The translations under genes and the position numbers were made by a program. A stretch of 64,000 nucleotides of DNA from an uncultured Opitutia bacterium (GTDB lineage: Bacteria > Verrucomicrobiota > Verrucomicrobiia > Opitutales > Opitutaceae), in contig CAIRCN010000004.1 of NCBI GenBank assembly GCA_903877135.1, positions 1 to 64,000 of the forward strand. Reading direction: 5' to 3'. The notes beneath the pieces are model-generated. The model searched no databases. It saw only the letters and a list, made by a program, of their open reading frames with translations, and had not been told where the DNA came from. Below, piece after piece: positions 54,624 through 59,457 of this stretch; within the stretch, counting starts at the first letter, position 1; each line of letters opens with the position of its first letter.

Positions 54624-55277
54624 TCAGCCCGGCGGCAGCTTGCGGAGCGCGAGCAGAGCGCGGTGCAGGTGCACGGCGCGCTGGAGCGCGCGGTCCGTCA
54701 CCGGTGGAGGCGGAGCCGGTTTTTGCGCGGTCGGGGCGGGTTCGGGGTCGTCGGATTCGTCGAGACCGGGAGCGGGGGTGCGGTGCTGTTGGGCGAGTTC
54801 GGCCTCGTCGTGGCGGGGTTTTTGGGGAATGTCGGAAATCAGGGCGTCCACGGGCGTGCCGTGCTCAAGCGCGTCGTAGGCGGTGCGCTCGGCTTCCGGC
54901 GCGGAGGCGACGGCGATGTCGGGGGTGAACTCGTCCGCGGTGGCGCCGATCGCCACCAGGCCGGCGGCGGATTCGCGGTCGGCGAGCATCGCGGTGAGCG
55001 CCGGGGCGGTGGCGCGGTTGACGAGCAGGAGCACGGGGCTGGTCGCGCTGGCGCGGAATTTCAGCCAAGCGTCGAGTGCGGTGACGCCGGCGGCGTCGCT
55101 CGCGGCAAAGCGCAGGTCGAGCACAACGGCGCGGGATTTTTTATTCGCGGGGCCGGGCAGATCGGCGGGCAGGCGATGGACGCGGCAGTAGGCCAGACCC
55201 TGGCCGAGGTCGCGCTCGAGCGGCGCGGCGGCGGCGGTCAGCGCGGAGAGGAGCAGGAGGCAGAGGGAAAATTTCAT
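54624..55277 (-). CDS. Secreted protein of unknown function, coupled to purD
   Basis: I do not recognise this 217-residue protein. A signal peptide (MKFSLCLLLLSALTAAAAPL) leads into an alpha/beta segment at about 20-110. It has strand-like VVLDLRFAASDAAG and PVLLLVNRATAPAL, faintly like the crotonase-like folds of S41/ClpP-type peptidases but without catalytic residues I can name. A Pro/Ala-rich, acidic region follows (150-190), then a basic helical tail. Its ATG overlaps the purD stop by four bases, so translation is coupled to a purine gene with no obvious link. Confidence 0.7.
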   Translation of the reverse strand: MKFSLCLLLLSALTAAAAPLERDLGQGLAYCRVHRLPADLPGPANKKSRAVVLDLRFAASDAAGVTALDAWLKFRASATSPVLLLVNRATAPALTAMLADRESAAGLVAIGATADEFTPDIAVASAPEAERTAYDALEHGTPVDALISDIPQKPRHDEAELAQQHRTPAPGLDESDDPEPAPTAQKPAPPPPVTDRALQRAVHLHRALLALRKLPPG

Positions 55278-56578
55278 GAGCGGCGGAGCTGGCGGGCGCC
55301 GATGTCACGGCGGAAATATTTGCTGGCGCACCGGATCGAGTCGCACGCGGCGTAGGCGGCGTCGGCGGCGGCGCGGAGCGTGGGCGCGAGCGCAGTCACG
55401 CCGAGGACGCGGCCGCCGGCGGTGACGAGCTGGCCGGCGGCGTTTTTCGCCGTGCCGGCGTGGTAGATGACGGTGGAAGGAGGCAGGTCGGAGGGAACAG
55501 GGAGAAGGATGGTGTCGCCCTTCGGGTAGGCCTCGGGATAGCCGTGGGCGGCGACGACGACACAGAGAGCGTGGGCGGGTTTGACCTCAAGCTGGTAGCC
55601 GGCGAGAGTGCCGCGCGCGGCGGCCCAGAGGAGTTCGAGCAGGTCGGAGGCGAGGCGCGGCAGCACGGCCTGCGTCTCGGGATCGCCGAAGCGGGTGTTG
55701 TATTCGAGGACGCTCGGGCCGTCGGGCGTGAGCATGATGCCGATGAAGAGTGTGCCGCGAAAATCGATACCCTCGCCGGCGATGGCTTCGACGGAGGGGC
55801 GGACGATCTCGCGCTCGATACGGGCGAGCAGCTCCGGCGTGACGATCTCGGCGGGCGAGTAGGCGCCCATGCCGCCGGTGTTGGGGCCGGTGTCGCCGTC
55901 GCCGATGCGTTTGTGGTCCTGCGAGGTGGGAAGGATCACGTAGTCGCGGCCCGAGACGACGACGAGCAGCGAGGTTTCCTCGCCGACGAGGCAGTCCTCG
56001 AGGAGGATTTTCGACTTTTGATTCTCGAATTTCGATTGGGATTTCAACGCGATGAGGGCGCGGACGGCGGCCTCGGCTTCGGCGTGCGTCTGGGCGACGA
56101 CGACGCCTTTGCCGGCGGCGAGGCCGTCAGCTTTCACGACGATCGGCATGCGGCGGGCCCAGATGTAGTCGATGGCGGCCTCGGCGTCGTCGAAGAAGGC
56201 GGCGGGCGCGGTGGGGATGTTGTGCTTGAGGAGGAGTTTTTTGGTGTAGATTTTCGAGGCTTCGAGGCGGGCACCGTCGGCGGTGGGGCCGTAAACGGGG
56301 AGGCCGATTTTGCCCAGCTCGTCGGCGAGGCCGAGCGAAAGCGGCACCTCGGGGCCGACGACGACGAACTCGACGTTTTCCCTCTGGGCGAGGACGACGA
56401 GCCCGGGGATGTCGTCGGCGGCGACGGGGAAACAGGCCGCGATTTCCGCAATGCCGGCGTTGCCGGGGGCGCATAGGATGCGGGGGCCGGCGGGGGAGGC
56501 GCCCAGAGCGAGGACGAGCGCATGCTCGCGCCCGCCGGAACCGACGACGAGAACGGAGGAGGGAAGGGCAGTGGCCAC
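55274..56578 (-). CDS. purD: Phosphoribosylamine-glycine ligase with an AT-rich in-frame segment
   Basis: PurD joins glycine to phosphoribosylamine in purine synthesis. The 434-residue ATP-grasp enzyme shows VVGSGGREHALVLALG, PVYGPTADGARLEASK, VVKADGLAAGKGVVVAQT, DGDTGPNTGGMGAYSP and EYNTRFGDPETQAVLPRL. It starts with GTG at 56578. Residues about 178-192 read KSQSKFENQKSKI, a Lys/Gln/Asn-rich stretch from AT-rich DNA that looks like a dispersed repeat. It sits just before LLEDCLVGEETSLLVV, where homologues have an ordinary helix. Confidence 0.95.
   Translation of the reverse strand: MATALPSSVLVVGSGGREHALVLALGASPAGPRILCAPGNAGIAEIAACFPVAADDIPGLVVLAQRENVEFVVVGPEVPLSLGLADELGKIGLPVYGPTADGARLEASKIYTKKLLLKHNIPTAPAAFFDDAEAAIDYIWARRMPIVVKADGLAAGKGVVVAQTHAEAEAAVRALIALKSQSKFENQKSKILLEDCLVGEETSLLVVVSGRDYVILPTSQDHKRIGDGDTGPNTGGMGAYSPAEIVTPELLARIEREIVRPSVEAIAGEGIDFRGTLFIGIMLTPDGPSVLEYNTRFGDPETQAVLPRLASDLLELLWAAARGTLAGYQLEVKPAHALCVVVAAHGYPEAYPKGDTILLPVPSDLPPSTVIYHAGTAKNAAGQLVTAGGRVLGVTALAPTLRAAADAAYAACDSIRCASKYFRRDIGARQLRRS
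56005..56046 (-). repeat. AT-rich repeat-like segment inside purD
   Basis: On the minus strand the segment is a chain of AAATCC, AATCG, AAATTCG and AAAGTCG words. It is strikingly A-rich against high-GC surroundings. It resembles the arms of the argB-argD inverted repeat at 36961-37026. It is read in frame as KSQSKFENQKSKI. Confidence 0.55.
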
Positions 56579-56597: not shown

Positions 56598-58505
56598 TTA
56601 GAGCACCTGCAATTTTTTCCGGTAGAAGGCGACGACCTCGTCGGGGTCGTCGGTGAAGAGGATATAGTCGAGCATCCAGGCGGGGGCGCGTTTGGTGCGG
56701 ATCATCTCGCGGATCTGGCGGCGGAGGTCGCCCCAGAACTTGGCGTTGAAAAACACGTAGGGCACGCGGGGCCGGATGCCGAGCTTGAGGTTGCAAAGCT
56801 CGATGCCGATCTCTTCGAGCGTGCCCACGCCGCCGACGTTGAAGATGCAAAAATCCGCCGCCTCGAACCATTTTTGGCGGAAGTGGCGCGAGGTTTCCTG
56901 GAAGGTGTTGAAGAAGTCCACTCCTAGCTCGGGAGGCTGGGCCTCGAGTTCGAGGAAGCAGGCGCCGGTGAGGGCACCCTTGGTGCGCGCCTGATCGGTG
57001 GCGAGGCGCATGACACCGCCGCCGCCGCCGGTGAGGACGCCGAGGTTGGGACCGATGAAGGTGGTGAGTTTGTCCACGAGCGAGGAGATGCGGTCGGTGT
57101 CGGCCTGCTCAAGACCCACGGCGGAGCCGTAGAAGGCGAGGATGGTGGTCTCCTGGAATTGGCGCGCCATCTCCTCGCGCACGAAGAAGCCGTGCTCCTT
57201 CTTATAGGTGTGCATGTAGAGATCCTTGGTAAGCTCGTCATACCAATAGACCTTCACACCGATGGCATCGAAGGTGTCGAGACGCGCATGGGCGTTGCTG
57301 GAGAGAAAATAGCCGTGGGTGCGCGAGGCATGGCGGAAGATGATGCGCTTGAGCCGGGCGTCGGTGATACGGGTGAGCAGCTCGATGTGCTCGATCAGGT
57401 CGGGGAAGTAATCGAGGATCAGGGTGTCGGCGTCGTCGGTGGAGGCGTCGAGTGCCTGGATCATGGTGCGGCTGCCCACAGGACAGGCGGCACCGTCGAG
57501 GATTTTACGGAGTTCATCGTTGGCGCGCACGAAGACGGCGCGGTTCTCCATCGTGGCGGTCTGGCCGCGGACGGTGATGCGGGTCTTGGGGCGGGCCTCG
57601 CCGCTGTCACGCGGCGGGTTTTCATCGAGGCATTTGTAGAGATCGGTGGCGGTGCTCAACAGGCGCTGGCGTTTCTTGGTGAGGGTCTTGATCTCCGGGT
57701 CGGTGACGACCGGGGCATGGAAAACCTCGACTGAGACCATGGGGTTCACGACGGGCTGGTCGCCGGTGTTGTAGATCTCCAGCATGATGTTCGTGCCGAA
57801 GGTCTTGATCGGGTCGAGCAGGACGGCGCTGGTGTGGATGCCAAAGTTACCCTCGCCCTGGTTGAGGACGACAAAATGCTCCTTCAGATACATGGAACAG
57901 CTGGTGAGGATGCCGGAGCGGGGCGGAATGGAGAGAGGGGAGGCGTCGTGGCGGATCTGAATCTGGTCGAGGTATCCGCGGCCGGCGTTGCCGCTGACCA
58001 CACGCTCGAAGTTGATGCGCTGGAGTTTAGGGTTGAGCGTGTAGGAGACTTGGTGCGGGGTCAGGAAAACGTGACCCAAGCGATCGATGCTGATTGTGTT
58101 GGGAAGTTTGAGGCGATTTTCCTTGAGCGCCTCCCAGATCTCTCCGGTGGAGAGCTTTGCGGCGGTGGGCGCGTAGAAGAGGCGACCTACGGGTGCGCCC
58201 GAGCGGAGGATTTTCTTCCAATAGGGCGTGTTGGGGAAACTGGTGTCGAAGATGAAGGCGTTGGCGTCGAGTTCGAGGCGATTGCCTTCCACTCGCGGTG
58301 CGCCGTGGATGTGCATCTCGATGCCGATGCGGGCGAGGGAGCTGCGCTCGGTGAACTTGAGGTCGGCGAGGCGGTCCTTGAGGAAGTCGAACTCGGCCGG
58401 GTGGCGGGGCCAGAAGGCGAGGGTGAGCGAGACGATGAGCTCGTCCTTGCTGCGGATGGTGAGGATTTGACCGTCTAGGCTGGTCCAAAATTGATCAGGG
58501 CTCAT
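56598..58505 (-). CDS. Large protein with C-terminal LOG-like (lysine decarboxylase family) domain
   Basis: This 635-residue protein ends in a Rossmann-like LOG domain (about 445-630). It has FYGSAVGLEQADTDRISSLV, GVLTGGGGGVMRLATDQART near residue 491 and FNVGGVGTLEEIGIE near 557. LOG enzymes release free cytokinin-type bases from nucleotides and use GGGPG and PGGxGTxxE. Here the prolines are lost (GGGGG, VGGVGT) while Gly and Glu remain. The N-terminal 440 residues match no family I know. They hold a beta-rich first half and a segment LILDYFPDLIEHIELLTRI that may be another alpha/beta unit. ATG at 58505 follows a pyrimidine leader. It is upstream of purD on the same strand. Confidence 0.75.
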   Translation of the reverse strand: MSPDQFWTSLDGQILTIRSKDELIVSLTLAFWPRHPAEFDFLKDRLADLKFTERSSLARIGIEMHIHGAPRVEGNRLELDANAFIFDTSFPNTPYWKKILRSGAPVGRLFYAPTAAKLSTGEIWEALKENRLKLPNTISIDRLGHVFLTPHQVSYTLNPKLQRINFERVVSGNAGRGYLDQIQIRHDASPLSIPPRSGILTSCSMYLKEHFVVLNQGEGNFGIHTSAVLLDPIKTFGTNIMLEIYNTGDQPVVNPMVSVEVFHAPVVTDPEIKTLTKKRQRLLSTATDLYKCLDENPPRDSGEARPKTRITVRGQTATMENRAVFVRANDELRKILDGAACPVGSRTMIQALDASTDDADTLILDYFPDLIEHIELLTRITDARLKRIIFRHASRTHGYFLSSNAHARLDTFDAIGVKVYWYDELTKDLYMHTYKKEHGFFVREEMARQFQETTILAFYGSAVGLEQADTDRISSLVDKLTTFIGPNLGVLTGGGGGVMRLATDQARTKGALTGACFLELEAQPPELGVDFFNTFQETSRHFRQKWFEAADFCIFNVGGVGTLEEIGIELCNLKLGIRPRVPYVFFNAKFWGDLRRQIREMIRTKRAPAWMLDYILFTDDPDEVVAFYRKKLQVL

Positions 58506-58653
58506 GGGAAAAGGGGCGAGTGATGGCTGAACCCCAGCCGGACACAAGCGGGGAGTAAATGGTTGCTTTTCGCCAGTCCGGCTGGCACACCCGAAAACTT
58601 TATGGCACAAAACCGTGCCATTCGTTTCCATACCGCTTCCTTCTAAAACACGC

Positions 58654-59457
58654 ATGAAATTCCAGTCCACCCTCACTGCCTGCCTTCTGGCCTTTGGCGT
58701 TTCTCTCGCGACGCACGCGCAGGAAATCAAACTAAACCTGCCCGGCAAGACCGATGCCGCGGCCCCGGCGACCGCACCCGCCACAACGCCCGCTGCACCC
58801 ACTTACACCGAGGCCCAGCTCGTCGAGGAGTGGGGCTGGTTCATGGCCAAACGCATCGGCATTGCCGAACTCCAGTTCACCAAGGATCAGATCGACGCCC
58901 TGTCGCGGGGCGTGGCCGCCGCCGCCGCAGGGAAAGATGCGCCCTATGACCTGCCCAAGATCGGGCCGATCATGGACGACTTCATGAAGAAAAAGCAGGA
59001 GACCTACGTCACCAAGCTCCGGCAACAGGGCATGGCCGAAACGGCGGCGTTCATGGTGGAAATTAAGAAGAAGGCCGGGGTGGTCACGACCCCGAGCGGA
59101 TTGTGCTACGAAATTCTCAAGCCGGGCGATGGTTCGGCGCCGAAACCCACCGACACCGTCAAGGTCCATTACACGGGTTCGCTCATCAGTGGCACGGTGT
59201 TCGACAGCTCGGTGCAGCGCGGCACACCCATCGACATCCCGCTCGATCAGGTGATTCCGGGTTGGACTGAGGGGCTCCAGAAAATTTCCAAGGGCGGGAA
59301 AATCAAACTCTACATCCCGCCGCACCTCGCCTACGGCGACGATGGCAAGGGCGGTATCCCGCCGGACTCGACGCTCATCTTCGAGATTGAGCTGATCGAC
59401 TTCAAGCCCACGCCGCCCCAGGCCGAGACGCCTGCGCCTGCTCCGGCTGGCAAGTAA
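58654..59457 (+). CDS. Secreted FKBP-type peptidyl-prolyl isomerase (FkpA/Mip-like)
   Basis: This 267-residue protein has a signal peptide (MKFQSTLTACLLAFGVSLAT, then HAQ) and an Ala/Pro/Thr-rich linker. A helical dimerisation region of the FkpA/Mip type follows at about 48-135. The C-terminal FKBP domain (about 145-250) has VKVHYTGSLISGTVFDSS, VIPGWTEGLQKISKGGKIKL, IPPHLAYGDDGKGGIPPDS and LIFEIELIDF. It should assist folding of exported proteins. It is divergent from the LOG-like gene and ends with a clear terminator. Confidence 0.95.
   Translation: MKFQSTLTACLLAFGVSLATHAQEIKLNLPGKTDAAAPATAPATTPAAPTYTEAQLVEEWGWFMAKRIGIAELQFTKDQIDALSRGVAAAAAGKDAPYDLPKIGPIMDDFMKKKQETYVTKLRQQGMAETAAFMVEIKKKAGVVTTPSGLCYEILKPGDGSAPKPTDTVKVHYTGSLISGTVFDSSVQRGTPIDIPLDQVIPGWTEGLQKISKGGKIKLYIPPHLAYGDDGKGGIPPDSTLIFEIELIDFKPTPPQAETPAPAPAGK

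Follow-up and report, generated by a model that had tools for sequence, protein, structure and literature searches.

Background

Active sites in the dCTP deaminase/dUTPase superfamily lie between subunits, and a chain that carries the fold twice in tandem can therefore divide one site between its repeats. Alphaproteobacteria have such tandem dCTP deaminases, and the Agrobacterium enzyme (2r9q) is the closest solved relative of the one from Sinorhizobium, in which KSSxGR is confined to repeat 1 and H..A...DPG...LEV lies in repeat 2. Across the superfamily Asp128 is kept, while Arg126 blocks dUTP hydrolysis in the monofunctional deaminases (PMC3360063). LOG proteins form a second type of nucleotide enzyme; in the type-II LOG of C. 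glutamicum, mutation showed Arg155, Lys156, Thr175 and Glu178 to be essential and Asp177 nearly so, and the catalytic Arg and Glu are conserved in all LOG subgroups (PMC5379747). E. coli PpnN (YgdH) is a LOG-fold NMP nucleosidase controlled by unrelated flanking PAG domains which respond to (p)ppGpp (PMC6717881).

Here we describe a gene, labelled LOGX as a whole, in a window of 64,000 nucleotides (the whole stretch of DNA analysed) from an Opitutaceae bacterium. It joins two nucleotide enzyme types in one gene that almost all Opitutaceae carry, and to our knowledge a dCTP deaminase-like pair and a LOG domain in one chain have not been described earlier. What we report on its domain layout, conservation, gene order and kept catalytic residues was established by computation.

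Results and discussion

The LOGX reading frame

LOGX occupies 56598..58505 on the minus strand of the window, with 635 codons at 56601-58505 and the stop codon at 56598-56600. The preliminary description had the content of the gene right and its strand wrong. The N-terminus reads MSPDQFWTSLDG, and the MSPDQFW start is backed by the aligned homologues; a longer reading of 734 residues from a GTG at 58802 is unsupported, as MSPDQFW is the common start of the homologues. An artefact, whether by chance, by frameshift or by assembly fusion of two genes, is ruled out, because an equally continuous chain is found in the 142 homologues aligned over their full length, none of which has an internal stop. 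The frameshift fusion, one of two facts that the preliminary description had named as able to overturn its reading, was thus not found.

The LOG domain

A divergent LOG domain (residues 453-635, 56601..57149, minus strand) closes the chain, as first described. PF03641 (Lysine_decarbox) matched residues 470-635 with an E-value of 5.3e-9 and 36.8 bits (gathering cut-off 27), and was matched at E <= 0.1 by all 29 family members of set A1. With TIGR00730 (LOG), LOGX scored 31.7 bits and did not reach the curated NCBIfam cut-off of 96.35. The best PDB sequence matches of LOGX were LOG proteins, hhalign of the domain against the canonical LOG proteins of the order gave a probability of 98.1 and an E-value of 1.2e-13, and the structural comparison (VIA) reached a Z of 18.1 with LOG structures.

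Three motifs were located in the domain, all on the minus strand: GGGGG (GGG-x-G in the family; residues 493-497, 57015..57029), RQKWF (residues 543-547, 56865..56879) and VGGVGTLEE, the counterpart of PGGxGTxxE (residues 557-565, 56811..56837). GGGGG and VGGVGTLEE are present as first reported, and both had been described as having lost their proline. For PGG this holds for the whole family, the proline being replaced by V, L, M, T or I in 142 of 142 sequences while GGxGTxEE is kept. The fourth position of GGGPG is G in 125 sequences, E in 13, P in two and D in two, and since it varies within the family the loss of this proline is not a family trait.

R543, Q544, T562, E564 and E565 are invariant in the 142 sequences, and correspond to Arg155, Lys156, Thr175, Asp177 and Glu178 of the C. 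glutamicum enzyme, whose roles are taken from PMC5379747. It should be noted that the profile alignment places R543 on the catalytic Arg, and Q544 on the following Lys, by opening a gap of one residue between helix and strand; if the alignment is left ungapped, the variable F542 falls at the Arg position. We prefer the gapped alignment because it is supported by hhalign and by the R-x-x-W/Y-F pattern of type-II LOGs. With these proteins (C. glutamicum Cg1261, 5wq3; T. thermophilus TT1465, 1wek) LOGX thus shares the fold, the catalytic Arg, Thr and Glu, the R-x-x-W/Y-F helix start and the GGG-x-G loop; it differs by a V in place of the PGG proline, a Q in place of the essential K and a long N-terminal fusion, and has no direct link to them in the LOG tree. 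The phylogenetic placement proposed in the preliminary description gave the LOGX family a long branch of its own, neither type I nor type II, with an unsure position.

The lost PGG proline, the change of Lys to Gln beside the catalytic residue and the long branch are what one might expect if the LOG part had turned into a non-catalytic binder like the molybdenum cofactor carrier proteins. However, those proteins have Ala for the Arg and have lost the motif (PMC5379747), and this signature is absent from LOGX, which keeps R543 and GGxGTxEE. T562, E564 and E565 are likewise invariant, with the caveat of F542 in the ungapped reading, and this part of the chain matches LOG structures (Z 17-18) better than the carrier proteins (Z 14-15). 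Of the catalytic signature, the PGG proline and the Lys following the Arg alone differ throughout the family. We consider such a binder improbable, and the earlier suggestion that activity had changed to binding is not favoured. Q544, standing where C. glutamicum LOG-II has an essential Lys, would nevertheless count against LOG activity, and with this Gln kept throughout the family the substrate may have changed.

Elsewhere in the genome, on a different contig, there is a canonical type-I LOG (201 residues). Two genomes of a divergent clade have a third LOG-fold protein, about 355-370 residues long (L154, G009:C327, which has the motif PGGAGTVQE; and G020:C5:441965).

A tandem dCTP deaminase-like N-terminus

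A first AlphaFold model, built from 29 sequences, left residues 190-260 unresolved; the model of residues 1-452 from an alignment of 72 sequences resolved them, with a mean pLDDT of 85.9. The best Foldseek match to the predicted N-terminus was the Agrobacterium enzyme 2r9q (E 1.3e-7). In VIA, residues 2-269 matched 2r9q with a Z of 15.7 over 234 residues (rmsd 3.5), well above the usual background Z of 7-8, and the remaining matches listed were single-domain dCTP deaminases and dUTPases with Z 9.5-13.2, mostly over residues 116-267. The match to 2r9q covers both repeats, the first at residues 1-113 (58167..58505, minus strand) and the second at residues 116-267 (57705..58160, minus strand).

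As an independent check, pairwise comparison with E. coli dCTP deaminase gave z 5.3 for repeat 1 (reached by 2 of 2000 shuffles) and z 4.2 for repeat 2 (4 of 2000), while the middle and LOG parts of LOGX gave z -0.8 and -0.4. RSSLARLGL of repeat 1 is aligned with RSSLARIGI of the E. coli enzyme, and HVTAHRIDP..IVLEFYNSG of repeat 2 with HTSAVLLDP..IMLEIYNTG. Profiles gave nothing significant. PF22769, PF00692 and PF06559 did not match LOGX, and among 72 members a single one matched at E 0.25; hhalign of the N-terminus, whose family profile is of low diversity (Neff about 2), against alignments of dCTP deaminases, dUTPases and tandem dCTP deaminases was equally silent. A HMMER dCTP deaminase model in maximum-sensitivity mode scored LOGX weakly, barely above shuffles. 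As the profile methods are blind here and most Opitutales dCTP deaminases show no pairwise signal with the LOGX N-terminus, the assignment is built on structure and motifs, and on this footing we take the predicted fold of residues 2-269 to be that of a tandem dCTP deaminase/dUTPase. Of the two kinds of search proposed for the N-terminus in the preliminary description, the structural one hence gave a match.

That description had found no nameable family in the N-terminal 440 or so residues, which now applies only to residues 268-452 (57150..57704, minus strand). These form a long helix and an alpha/beta domain according to the AlphaFold secondary structure, are the least conserved region of LOGX in the 142 sequences, and had no match identified in PDB searches, in which they were included as part of a longer chain. 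Matches of residues 131-152 to NHL repeats ("Pizza" proteins) were rejected, as they involve a single 21-residue hairpin with a score inflated by repeated targets.

Two adjacent dCTP deaminase genes on the same strand were seen in one Opitutales genome (L158 and L173, G036:C20:18101-19044). L158 has the strongest pairwise similarity to repeat 2 among the dCTP deaminases of the order (z 5.1).

A probable active site divided between two repeats

The phosphate-binding motif RSSLAR lies in repeat 1 (residues 54-59, 58329..58346, minus strand), and the base-binding and catalytic motif HTSAVLLDPIKTFGTNIMLEIYN in repeat 2 (residues 224-246, 57768..57836, minus strand). Invariant in the 142 sequences are R54, S55, A58 and R59 of RSSxAR, and H224, A227, D231, P232, E243, Y245 and N246 of H-x2-A-x3-DP...LExYN. 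By sequence alignment rather than superposed coordinates, with the E. coli numbering checked on its sequence, the former four correspond to R110, S111, A114 and R115 of E. coli dCTP deaminase, and H224, A227, D231 and E243 to its H121, A124, D128 and E138. E138 has no conserved equivalent in repeat 1, and the RSS motif is absent from repeat 2. Both repeats thus resemble the single-domain E. coli enzyme in sequence and fold and hold the same active-site residues, whereas the E. coli chain carries the full set and LOGX divides it, with Arg126 replaced by L229.

The division is similar in the alphaproteobacterial tandem enzymes, which also have two dCTP deaminase folds per chain, with KSS or RSS in repeat 1 only and H..A...DP...LE in repeat 2. 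In contrast to these, LOGX has a LOG domain, its repeats are shorter (267 residues, theirs about 365), their C-terminal stretch SNYQxQGLxLSK was not seen in it, and sequence profiles do not connect the two. LOGX seems a clear case of a tandem repeat whose two copies have divided a trimer-type active site between them.

Proposed function

LOGX very likely handles nucleotides, and we suggest that it is a conserved nucleotide-pool enzyme of Opitutaceae, usually encoded upstream of purD. The chain begins with tandem dCTP deaminase/dUTPase folds (1-267), continues with a connector of alpha/beta type (268-452) and ends in a phosphoribohydrolase domain of the LOG type (453-635). Phosphate binding would fall to the motif in repeat 1, base binding and catalysis to that in repeat 2, so that each chain probably has one composite site for a (deoxy)nucleoside triphosphate. 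Cleavage of a nucleoside 5'-monophosphate, with release of the base and of (deoxy)ribose 5-phosphate, is the most likely reaction of the LOG domain. The N-terminal site more probably than not still does chemistry, in the form of deamination and/or loss of pyrophosphate, and the resulting monophosphate might then be removed by the LOG domain. We infer the substrates, both activities and their coupling from these features. A composite triphosphate site together with LOG-type nucleotide cleavage is our best explanation of the gene as a whole, and we put it forward tentatively, with somewhat less than even confidence. The stricter proposal of two coupled sites, in which a triphosphate is turned into a monophosphate and then into base and sugar phosphate as a route common to the family, is rather unlikely to hold in full. 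If both sites work, LOGX would represent a new route for removing nucleotides.

Against the best explanation, the N-terminal chemistry could be lost and ligand binding kept. The tandem part would then be a dead nucleotide sensor gating the LOG enzyme, in the way that the PAG domains gate PpnN, and LOGX would be a second regulated LOG nucleosidase beside PpnN. PpnN is a precedent for such gating (PMC6717881) and matches the LOG part at a Z of about 15, and dCTP deaminases bind dTTP as a regulator (PMC4827122). On the other hand, sensing alone would not call for the invariance of H224, D231 and E243 across the 142 sequences, and neither PAG1 (DUF4478) nor PAG2 (DUF3412), which flank the LOG part of PpnN, had a Pfam match in LOGX. 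A sensor of this kind is a serious alternative to the nucleotide-pool enzyme, to which we give perhaps one chance in three.

dUMP supply in Opitutaceae

LOGX might instead be the missing dCTP deaminase/dUTPase of the family, supplying dUMP for thymidylate. Canonical dCTP deaminase (PF22769) is absent from 204 of 252 Opitutaceae genomes and trimeric dUTPase (PF00692) from 222, and the sole genus in which decay of LOGX was seen (g46) has a canonical dCTP deaminase. However, ComEB-type dCMP deaminase is present in most genomes that have no dCTP deaminase (218 of all 252 carry it), all 12 genomes checked have a dUTPase, either the dimeric PF08761 (ten genomes) or the trimeric PF00692 (the other two), and related genera carry both canonical dCTP deaminase and LOGX. 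The dCMP deaminase and the dUTPases thus explain the dUMP supply, and LOGX is not needed for it. The counts of these enzymes, with the two dUTPase families taken together, led us to reject LOGX as a substitute, a role that now seems very unlikely.

ComEB-type dCMP deaminase was not found in the listed genomes of g9, g13 and g20, which are genera with canonical dCTP deaminase, nor in the three genomes of g46 in which the wider deaminase family was looked for. The two deaminases were largely mutually exclusive by genus (g9, g13, g20 and g46 versus most others), and a few other Opitutaceae genera showed a PF22769 match alongside dCMP deaminase. The pattern of dimeric and trimeric dUTPases across the 12 genomes suggests a swap.

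Distribution, neighbourhood and decay

LOGX is single-copy and full-length across Opitutaceae. A full-length match was found in 23 of the first 25 genomes, and a match at E <= 0.001 in 240 of 252 genomes and 163 of the 165 good ones, the latter two counts taking in copies that are partial or broken. When 387 genomes of the phylum were searched by profile, only LOG domains and no full-length relative turned up beyond Opitutaceae. Scanning 84,980 species genomes by pattern, which reaches close relatives only, returned 197 relatives, and the 80 that were kept are Opitutae or Verrucomicrobia records. No phage or viral relative was found, and plasmids gave weak matches to the LOG part only. A defence role was rejected, as PADLOC gave no match, the gene is core and syntenic, and phage or viral homologues were lacking.

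The next gene downstream is purD (55274..56578, minus strand; Pfam GARS_A/N/C), 19 bases past the LOGX stop, and the divergent upstream neighbour encodes an FKBP-type isomerase (58615..59457, plus strand; Pfam FKBP_C). In 62 of the 66 loci with enough downstream sequence, purD follows LOGX on the same strand, with a gap below 600 bases in 48, and the FKBP gene is divergent in all 76 loci with enough upstream sequence. Beyond purD, glyA is near LOGX in 46 of 54 loci. The synteny with purD may be a matter of operon convenience only. No RNA family was found near LOGX.

Decay was seen in one genus, g46, where LOGX is broken in place in five searched genomes and intact in four others; the gene can therefore be lost. 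Two species (G253 and G337) have a common large internal deletion of about residues 107-603, and G563, G564 and G569 have frameshifts or stops. Sequencing errors may account for some frameshifts in the draft and long-read genomes, but hardly for the large deletions. All five broken loci (L207-L211, in G253, G337, G569, G564 and G563, respectively) keep the FKBP gene, and also purD where the contig reaches it.

A conserved protein of 217 residues with a signal-like start and no Pfam match is encoded at 54624-55277 on the minus strand of the window; it is kept in most relatives and sits between purD and a low-molecular-weight phosphatase.
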